From Acidobacteriota bacterium (GTDB taxonomy: Bacteria > Acidobacteriota > UBA890 > WLXD01), in NCBI GenBank assembly GCA_012103255.1, contig WLXD01000005.1:62001-126000 (forward strand): a stretch of DNA of 64,000 nucleotides. Direction: 5' to 3'. Within the stretch, counting starts at the first letter, position 1; each line of letters opens with the position of its first letter. A program made the position numbers and the translations under genes. Shown here in pieces: positions 43,097-46,521 of this stretch. The notes under the pieces were generated by a model. The model did not search any database. It saw only the letters and a program-made list of their open reading frames with translations, and was not told the DNA's origin.

Positions 43097-43360
43097 ATGT
43101 CGAGTTCCCCCGTGCCAGGCATGACCGGATCAGAGGTTCGCGCTTTGCGCGGCGGCCGGACAGGTGCGGTCTTCGGTCAGGACGTCCGCGAGGAGCTCGC
43201 TGGCCTGCTTGCCGTTCCCGTCGAGGCCATACCGAGCGTGAGCTACACGCAGGTTTCGCGCTGGGAGAAGCGCGGGCTCGACCCCGACACGGGCAAGATC
43301 ACAACGCTGGTCTACCTCGCTGCGTTGCGCCGCATGGATGCGGCACCGCCGCGCGCCTAG
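43097..43360 (+). CDS. Small XRE-like helix-turn-helix protein
   Basis: 87 residues. MTGSEVRALRGG at about residue 9 and SYTQVSRWEKRGLDPDTG near 50 are the first helix and recognition helix of a Cro/C1-type fold. Between them the usual QxELAxxLGVS helix is spread over a longer, divergent stretch (REELAGLLAVPVEAIPSV). The ATG at 43097 follows CGGAG by six bases. It is probably a DNA-binding regulator; the target is unknown. The stop overlaps the end of purA on the other strand. Confidence 0.7.
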   Translation: MSSSPVPGMTGSEVRALRGGRTGAVFGQDVREELAGLLAVPVEAIPSVSYTQVSRWEKRGLDPDTGKITTLVYLAALRRMDAAPPRA

Positions 43361-44661
43361 GGAACCAGATCGTCGAGCGGCCCGCCCGGTAGCTGCACGA
43401 TGGCCTCGCGCTCCGCACCGTTGGACGCCATGCCCACGGAGCAACCGGACACTTCCTCGATGCGGCGCAGGTATGCCTTGGCTTCCTCCGGGAACTCGTC
43501 GATGGTCCGAGCGCCGATCACCGATCCCTTCCATCCTGGACAATCCTCGTAGATCGGCACGATCTCCTTCGCGCTCGTCAAGTTGGCAGGCATTTCCTCG
43601 TGGCGGACGCCGTCCACCTCGTAGGCAACGCAGATCCGCAACGGATCGATGCCATCGAGAACGTCGAGCTTCGTGACCACGAAGACGTCACAGCCATTGA
43701 CCCGCACGGCGTACCGCGCAGCGACTGCGTCGAACCATCCGCATCGTCGCGGGCGTCCCGTAGTGGCGCCATATTCCTGCCCGACATCGCGCAGCTTCTG
43801 ACCGATCTCGTCGTCCAGTTGCGTGGGCATGGGGCCTGAGCCCACTCGCGTCGTATAGGCCTTCGTGACACCAAGGACACCGTCTACCCGGTTCGGGCCA
43901 ACGCCGAGTCCTGAACTCACGCCGCCCGAGGTGGCGTTGGAGGACGTGACGAACGGGTAGGTTCCGTGATCGACGTCGAGATGCGTGCCCTGCGCGCCCT
44001 CGAACAGAACGTTGCGTCCGGCACGGATCGCCGTGTCGAGTCGCAACGAGGTGTCAGCCAGGTAGGGCTTCAGTCGCTCGCCCCAGTGGGCGTACTGCTC
44101 GACGATCTCGTCGGCCACGAAGGGCTCGCGATCGTAGAGGTGCCGCATGAGGTCGTTGACCACGTCGAGATTCGAGGCGATCTTCGCGGCCAAGACGTCG
44201 CGGTCGATGCAGTCGATCGCTCGGATGCCGGAGCGCCCCATCTTGTCCTGGTAGGCCGGGCCGATGCCACGGCTGGTCGTGCCGATGGCGTCTTTCCCGC
44301 GGCGCTTCTCGCTACCCAGTTCGATGCCGTGGTGGTAGGGAAGGATCAGATGCGCGCGATCGGACACCCAGAGCCGCCCCAGAGTTTCGACACCCTGTTC
44401 CTGGAGACGATCGATCTCCTTGAAAAGCGCCTCGGGGTCTACGACGACCCCGTTCCCGATCACGCATTCCTTGCCGGGGCGCAGAATGCCGGACGGCACC
44501 AGGTGCAACACCTGTTTGACGCCGTCGTGGATCACCGTATGGCCGGCGTTGTTGCCGCCCTGGTAGCGCGCGATCACGTCGAAACGTTCGGCTAGCCAGT
44601 CGACGATCTTGCCTTTGCCTTCGTCGCCCCATTGGGTACCGACAAGCGCAACATTGGGCAT
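43357..44661 (-). CDS. purA: Adenylosuccinate synthetase
   Basis: 434-residue GTP-dependent enzyme joining IMP and aspartate on the way to AMP. Signatures: GTQWGDEGKGKIVDWLAERFDVIARYQGGNNAGHT at the N-terminus (GDEGKGK P-loop), GTTSRGIGPAYQDKMGRSG near 130, LFEGAQGTHLDVDHGTYPFVTSSN near 220 and [14 protein letters not shown] near 295. The first methionine of the conserved block (44661) gives normal length; the longer upstream frame is not supported. Confidence 0.97.
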   Translation of the reverse strand: MPNVALVGTQWGDEGKGKIVDWLAERFDVIARYQGGNNAGHTVIHDGVKQVLHLVPSGILRPGKECVIGNGVVVDPEALFKEIDRLQEQGVETLGRLWVSDRAHLILPYHHGIELGSEKRRGKDAIGTTSRGIGPAYQDKMGRSGIRAIDCIDRDVLAAKIASNLDVVNDLMRHLYDREPFVADEIVEQYAHWGERLKPYLADTSLRLDTAIRAGRNVLFEGAQGTHLDVDHGTYPFVTSSNATSGGVSSGLGVGPNRVDGVLGVTKAYTTRVGSGPMPTQLDDEIGQKLRDVGQEYGATTGRPRRCGWFDAVAARYAVRVNGCDVFVVTKLDVLDGIDPLRICVAYEVDGVRHEEMPANLTSAKEIVPIYEDCPGWKGSVIGARTIDEFPEEAKAYLRRIEEVSGCSVGMASNGAEREAIVQLPGGPLDDLVP

Positions 44662-44788
44662 CGAAGCGAGACTCCGGTGGCGCACACGAAACGCACGAAC
44701 GGCGTCGGTGCGGGAGAGAAAAGACGGGCAGATCGTAGCAACCGGCTGCAGGGCCGACAAGCGACTGATGTGCTAACTTGCCGCCCCG

Positions 44789-44995
44789 ATGGACTTTGAC
44801 GTCAGGTTGTTGGCAGTGGTGCTCGGGCTCGTCCTGATTATCGAAGGGCTGCCGTATCTTCTTGTTTCCAGAACGTATCCGTTCCGTACTCGAGCAACTC
44901 GAAGAGCTCGGTCCCGGTCGCTTGCGGATCATGGTTTTGCATTGATGGCTGGTGGCGTGATGCTGCTGATCATCGGCCGCTGGGTGCTGCAGTAG
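44789..44995 (+). CDS. DUF2065-family membrane protein with two compensating frameshifts
   Basis: 68 residues. The start (VVLGLVLIIEGLPYLL) and end (LMAGGVMLLIIGRWVL) are the two membrane helices of DUF2065 (YjeT-like) proteins. Between them the frame reads an arginine-rich stretch unlike the family. In the +1 frame the same bases give LFPERIRSVLEQLEELGPGR followed by LRIMVL, the expected family loop. So an extra base near 44859-44864 and a missing base near 44934-44941 appear to have shifted about 25 codons while the frame stays open. Either sequencing errors or a real double mutation. Confidence 0.75.
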   Translation: MDFDVRLLAVVLGLVLIIEGLPYLLVSRTYPFRTRATRRARSRSLADHGFALMAGGVMLLIIGRWVLQ

Positions 44996-45018
44996 CTCAG
45001 CGCATAGGGTCGACGCAC

Positions 45019-46521
45019 GTGTTCGAAATCGACGGATCCTCACTTACGCTCGAACAGGTCCAGGCCGCCGCGGCCACTCCCGGGGCCAATGTCCGCCTTG
45101 CGGATACGGCCCGCGAGCGAATGCTTGCCGGTCGCGCCCGCGTTGACGAGATCGTCGAGTCGGGCGAGACCGTCTACGGCGTGAACACGGGCTTCGGTCA
45201 CTTCGCGGAGATCAGCATCCCCGCCGATTCGGTCCGACAGTTGCAGCTTAATCTGGTGCGCTCACACGCTGTCGGCACGGGAGAACTGCTGAGCCCCGAG
45301 GTCGTGCGAGCTCTTCTCGTGCTGCGCGCCAACGTGATGGCGCATGGCTGTTCCGGCGTTCGGCCTGCGGTCGCTGATCAGATGCTGGGTCTGCTGCGCG
45401 CAGACGCCCTGCCCGTGGTTCCTCGGCAGGGCTCGGTTGGCGCTAGCGGCGATCTCGCCCCTCTCGCACATCTTGCGCTGGTTCTCATCGGCGAGGGTGA
45501 GGCATTCGTGGGCGGCGAACGCACGAGCGGTGCTGCGGCGCTTGAAGCCGCCGGCCTCACGCCGTTGGACCTACAGCCGAAGGAAGGCCTCGCGCTCGTC
45601 AACGGCACCCAGGTGATGACGGCTCTGGGAACTCTCGCGAGCGCCCAGCTTGATCGCCTGTGCAGCGTCGCCAACGTGACCGGCGCGATGAGCCTCGAGG
45701 CGCTCCTGGGCAAGACTGCGCCCTTCGACCCGGCAATTGCCGAGCTCCGAGGTTTCGAGGGGCAACGGCGCTGCGCGGATGAGATCAGGGCGTTGCTGAG
45801 TGGCAGTCAGCTGGCCGACTCGGAGGCCACGCGAGTTCAGGACGGGTATTCGTTGCGTTGCATGCCACAGGTTCATGGCGCCGCGTACGACGTGTGTGCG
45901 ATGGCCAGAACGACATTTGCGACGGAACTCAACGCCGTGACCGACAACCCGGTGGTGTTGCCAGACGGTCGTGTTCTCTCGTGCGGCAACTTCCACGGCC
46001 AGCCGATCGCCTATGCGCTCGACTTTCTCGCAATGGCGGCCACCGACCTGGCCTCGATCGCCGAGCGTCGGATCAACCGACTCTTGAATCCTCGACTTTC
46101 GGGTCTGCCGGCATTTCTGGTGGAAGATGGCGGACTGCGGTCGGGCTATCTCATGGTGCAGACATCCGCCGCCGCGATCGTGGCGGAGAATCGGACGCTG
46201 GCCGTTCCGGCGAGCACCGACAGTGTGCCGACGTCCGCAGACCAAGAGGACCATGTGTCGATGGGCACCTGGGGCGGCTGGAAGGCTGGCCTTGCAGTGG
46301 AGAATTGCCGGCGTGTCCTCGCGATGGAGTTGCTTTGCGCCGCCGAAGCAATGGAGTTCCGCGATCGCCCACGACAGGCAAGTGCCCTCGGCGGGGCACA
46401 CACGTGGGTGCGGGAGAGGGTGGCGCGGCTCGACACCGATCGACCGCTTACGGCGGACATCGGGCGTATCGCCGCCGCTCTTTCTGACGATGGCCTCCTC
46501 ACGGCAGCCGGGATTCGATGA
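45019..46521 (+). CDS. hutH: Histidine ammonia-lyase
   Basis: 500 residues. It converts L-histidine to urocanate with the MIO cofactor formed from Ala-Ser-Gly in GSVGASGDLAPLAHLAL near residue 140. Other landmarks are VYGVNTGFGHFAEI near 52, NLVRSHAVGTGELL near 80 (the SH pair is typical of histidine-specific members) and DNPVVLPDGRVLSCGNFHGQP near 310. The start is GTG. There is no hutU or hutI beside it, so an aromatic amino-acid lyase role is a lesser possibility. The stop overlaps the lipoprotein gene downstream. Confidence 0.92.
   Translation: MFEIDGSSLTLEQVQAAAATPGANVRLADTARERMLAGRARVDEIVESGETVYGVNTGFGHFAEISIPADSVRQLQLNLVRSHAVGTGELLSPEVVRALLVLRANVMAHGCSGVRPAVADQMLGLLRADALPVVPRQGSVGASGDLAPLAHLALVLIGEGEAFVGGERTSGAAALEAAGLTPLDLQPKEGLALVNGTQVMTALGTLASAQLDRLCSVANVTGAMSLEALLGKTAPFDPAIAELRGFEGQRRCADEIRALLSGSQLADSEATRVQDGYSLRCMPQVHGAAYDVCAMARTTFATELNAVTDNPVVLPDGRVLSCGNFHGQPIAYALDFLAMAATDLASIAERRINRLLNPRLSGLPAFLVEDGGLRSGYLMVQTSAAAIVAENRTLAVPASTDSVPTSADQEDHVSMGTWGGWKAGLAVENCRRVLAMELLCAAEAMEFRDRPRQASALGGAHTWVRERVARLDTDRPLTADIGRIAAALSDDGLLTAAGIR

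Follow-up and report, generated by a model that had tools for sequence, protein, structure and literature searches.

DUF2065 is a small gene that is common in bacteria, and its products are small inner-membrane proteins with two helices. YjeT of E. coli is a member of this family (PF09838). The helices belong to what is known of the family and, for the locus described here, are presumed. This locus lies in the window, that is, the whole stretch of 64,000 nucleotides that was analysed from an Acidobacteriota bacterium (contig WLXD01000005.1, positions 62,001 to 126,000). Its open reading frame (ORF) resembles the family in scoring above the curated Pfam cut-off and in adjoining purA, as 11 of the 24 loci of relatives do. 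It differs in that its loop is found in another frame, and the ORF product is without the conserved proline and arginine.

The other systems that come close are residual indels in long-read and metagenome assemblies. Frameshift errors in called genes are stated to result from indels in nanopore assemblies (PMC9262707), and a worked case from a long-read metagenome describes a single gene that an indel had split (PMC8575027). As in these cases, the present assembly breaks conserved, selected genes elsewhere, but the sites in the window lie off long homopolymers, and the pair of shifts cancels and leaves the ORF untruncated. Titles and abstract beginnings among the matches listed for compensatory or double frameshifts contained no close parallel. 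The features of the locus are as follows.

43357..44760, minus strand: purA (adenylosuccinate synthetase), divergent neighbour in a single open frame (PF00709, 585.9 bits)
44789..44995, plus strand: DUF2065 (PF09838) ORF of 68 amino acids, two hydrophobic stretches and a joining loop (31.6 bits, cut-off 24.3)
44789..44857, plus strand: first hydrophobic part, in the ORF frame (profile match and codon statistics)
44857..44866, plus strand: interval of the first change of frame in the family reading, from ORF to +1 (two-frame profile match)
44861..44933, plus strand: loop of the family, undamaged in +1 and arginine-rich in the ORF frame (42.9 versus -17.8 bits)
44931..44941, plus strand: interval of the second change, which brings the family reading back into the ORF frame (two-frame profile match)
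44940..44992, plus strand: second hydrophobic part, in the ORF frame (profile match; codon statistics favour the ORF frame)
45019..46521, plus strand: aromatic amino acid lyase (HAL-like), downstream neighbour in a single open frame (PF00221, 606.7 bits)

The original prediction placed a DUF2065 gene at 44789-44995, and both the coordinates and the family assignment were correct. PF09838 matched the genome twice at this place: in the ORF frame over profile positions 1-55 (30.6 bits) and in the +1 frame over positions 16-43 (22.5 bits, which is under the cut-off of 24.3, with an E value of 6e-4 for the genome). A profile made from 24 relatives gave 37.9 bits for the ORF frame and 23.4 bits for the +1 frame (E 2.1e-9, Z=1). 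These relatives are all the other DUF2065 loci found when 396 genomes from the phylum were searched; 25 of these genomes, including the present one, contained the gene. Over the 25 loop columns, the +1 reading scored 42.9 bits, higher than 19 of the 24 relatives, and the ORF-frame reading scored -17.8 bits, lower than all of them; the leave-one-out scores of the relatives ranged from 1.0 to 50.4 bits, and the +1 loop had been aligned jointly with the relatives before it was scored. The proline of the loop (24/24 relatives) and its arginine (22/24) are present only in the +1 frame and thus not in the frame of the two ends; the ORF frame has serine and alanine at these positions. The leucine preceding the conserved arginine (21/24) is kept in both frames. 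The profile matches and loop scores support two opposite one-base shifts with no stop introduced, as had been predicted, and likewise the replacement of about 25 residues by an arginine-rich stretch.

The arginine-rich loop could be a genuine old variant of the family, with the +1 match due to chance. The ORF has no interruption and, unmodified, scores above the Pfam cut-off, and the charge of its loop is only just outside the family range, with 7 lysines and arginines, one more than the maximum of the relatives (3-6). Arginine itself occupies 7 of the 25 columns, compared with 1-4 in the relatives. An old variant is nevertheless very unlikely, given the E value of the +1 match and an ORF-frame loop that scores below every relative. 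The arginine-rich loop was found in none of the 24 relatives, a comparison that might have overturned the prediction but left it standing.

Codon statistics were in favour of the ORF frame for the two ends of the gene and of the +1 frame for the loop. The loop signal of 10.7 nats is not special, because internal sections above 9 nats are frequent, with 38 in 567 ORFs of the present genome and 26 in 299 ORFs of the congeners. Composition alone is weak evidence, and the case for two frames is one of homology. A scan for cancelled shifts within ORFs by codon statistics was uninformative, as these rates are alike in the present genome and the congeners. Four of the six largest sections in the present genome were inspected by eye, and three of them were shadow ORFs, the real gene lying in the other frame.

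Programmed recoding would likewise leave each frame family-like in its own part: the ribosome would move into the +1 frame ahead of the loop and return once past it, and the family protein would be made. Ribosomal frameshifting is treated in PMC5009743. At this locus, recoding would require the ribosome to shift efficiently twice, in opposite directions, within 75 bases. Inspection by eye showed neither a stop codon where the first shift would occur nor, at the second, a clear slippery heptamer, and such a build was found in 0 of the 24 relatives. Recoding is therefore hardly credible here.

The +1 loop is without decay and as good as that of other members. Its identity to the nearest orthologue (locus L004) was 11/25, similar to that of the flanks (20/40). 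Once shifted, the +1 loop would have been free to decay; its intact state indicates shifts that either arose very recently or are not real. No orthologue closer than those of G006 and G008 was found in the order, and G001 to G005 and G007 gave no DUF2065 match. A DNA search of the order returned only chance-like matches to the DUF2065 gene, and a plasmid search matched only purA.

In the 3-kb surroundings (approximately) of the relatives' DUF2065 genes, purA was present in 11 of 24 loci, the lyase in 12 of 24, and either of them in 18 of 24; the present locus has both. The shared neighbourhood supports orthology. The order purA, DUF2065, aromatic amino acid lyase spans 43357-46521 of the window and is found in part or whole in 18 of the 24 loci of the phylum. 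A scan of 44600-45100 for promoters and terminators found none.

The comparison within the order covered nine genomes, one of which (G002) is 77% complete and has no purA match. DUF2065 lies beside purA only in the present genome, G006 and G008. At the purA-lyase junction of G001 (L107), G003 (L108), G004 (L112), G005 (L113) and G007 (L111), DUF2065 was absent, and a search of all frames detected nothing left of it. Members of the order thus seem able to do without the gene, and its being missing here in close relatives makes real decay plausible. Selection on DUF2065 may accordingly be weak, which would favour two real indels that arose very recently in the organism, one breaking a dispensable gene and the second restoring the frame. 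Both indels also fall between the hydrophobic parts, which stay spared. Such a real pair has a limited chance of being the explanation. Its outcome, equally tentative, would be a protein that keeps its two hydrophobic ends but has acquired an arginine-rich loop, or a gene on the way to loss. The undecayed +1 loop counts against a real pair, and so do similar breaks in genes whose pieces are under purifying selection, which point to a common technical cause.

The present assembly has 9 contigs and 4.81 Mb. Frame breaks were searched for with a coding-frame decoder in 720 kb of this genome and in 410 kb from two congeners; the decoder recognised 52 of 60 simulated single indels, a figure obtained before the junction filter was added. 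In the present genome there were 71 direct same-strand frame switches, 13 of them not junction-like. In the congeners there were 28, of which 1 was not junction-like, and by eye this one consisted of two neighbouring genes. Twenty fragments of the present genome were scanned against Pfam to classify the flagged switches. Four of the 13 were proven breaks, two in an ATP-dependent DNA ligase gene, one in a DUF885 gene and one in the gene of a Cys/Met PLP enzyme. Four others are probable breaks, in MacB/FtsX genes (contig C1 201085 and 467050), a sulfatase gene (525647) and a DUF3047 gene (453822), "probable" meaning that one side only was on a Pfam model or that the sides were on different domains. 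A further four were neighbouring genes, judged by eye only (C7 202611; C1 258794, 362052 and 520826), and the switch at C7 19589 had no Pfam match. Near the first of these positions (L144:2580-2650, contig C7 202580-202650), a gene with a metallo-beta-lactamase fold follows a gene like a carboxylate-amine ligase, both named by eye, with no obvious start codon near the junction.

The ligase gene (L145:6555-7982, contig C7 226555-227982) lies outside the window and has four frame segments and three switches, which fall within approximately 860 bases. In the same region, an SLT/LysM protein is encoded at L145:9702-10900 (contig C7 229702-230900), and the final LysM domain of this protein probably runs on in a different frame. 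This is a fifth probable break, missed by the junction filter; in the new frame, the match to the domain begins only at profile position 13, and the missing start was seen by eye only. The three ligase switches and the probable LysM break approximately 3 kb away indicate that frame breaks cluster. On contig C1, the DUF885 gene (L154:14687-16323) and an ORF joining an alpha/beta hydrolase and the PLP enzyme (L168:14425-16424) have one frame switch each.

In all three split genes, both pieces fell on one Pfam model: profile positions 16-271 and 321-532 for DUF885, 2-102 and 111-380 for the PLP enzyme, and 2-140 and 152-204 for the ligase. Each of these genes is one long open frame in both congeners. 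The longest open frames there were 567 and 586 amino acids for the ligase (248 in the present genome), 670 and 627 for DUF885 (345) and 757 and 605 for the PLP enzyme (331). The dN/dS of the pieces against the congeners was 0.05-0.32 (15 of 16 comparisons computable), and between the congeners it was 0.05-0.18 for the same genes; overall, 1 of 24 values was not computable. One ligase piece had raised values of 0.32 and 0.26, compared with 0.11 between the congeners, which is what relaxed selection would give. Constrained genes with up to three frame breaks indicate errors of the consensus.

The contrast between the present genome and the congeners in the number of broken genes is modest. For the proven broken genes alone, 3 in 720 kb versus 0 in 410 kb, a simple binomial gave approximately 0.26, which is not significant alone. 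With the 8 proven or probable broken genes versus 0 in the congeners, it gave approximately 0.03.

Nanopore errors usually sit at long homopolymers. The longest homopolymer run was 4 when the surroundings of the two DUF2065 sites were examined out to 30 bases, and 5 when those of ten other break points were examined out to 45 bases, so the break sites are away from long homopolymers and the errors are not of the classical nanopore kind. Runs of six G or C were rarer in the sample of the present genome (10.0 per 100 kb) than in those of the congeners (21.3 and 15.8), and this hints weakly that bases were lost.

Both genes that flank DUF2065, purA and the lyase, are free of breaks. No clustering of errors is therefore evident in the immediate surroundings, which counts against an assembly artefact. 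If errors were independent and occurred at the observed density, the chance of a pair within 75 bases would be approximately 0.07 genome-wide, by a rough estimate. Such a pair being unlikely, the artefact requires that errors cluster.

An assembly error is nonetheless favoured, because other genes are split between frames although their pieces are under purifying selection and the congeners have them whole. The most economical reading is an ordinary DUF2065 gene with two indels in the consensus, and we consider it probable that these are an assembly artefact. The organism would then have an ordinary DUF2065 gene between purA and the aromatic amino acid lyase gene, and the sequence of the window would carry two consensus indels of opposite sign, approximately 75 bases apart. 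Both would most likely be errors of a contiguous, incompletely corrected assembly that was presumably made from long reads. As the two indels cancel, no stop would arise, and a gene caller would obtain one clean ORF with a false arginine-rich loop. An alteration of the DUF2065 gene in the organism itself is the less likely reading.

Pairs of cancelling indels leave an open, full-length ORF and are therefore invisible to checks of gene length or truncation. They can bring false loops into protein databases. The frame shift in DUF2065 is most likely an assembly error rather than new biology. It is doubtful, though possible, that it is a fresh, real compensated frameshift, in which a small membrane protein tolerates the exchange of a whole conserved loop for an arginine-rich stretch while the old reading has not yet decayed. 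If real, the locus would illustrate how, in nature, one pair of frameshifts can replace a loop entirely.
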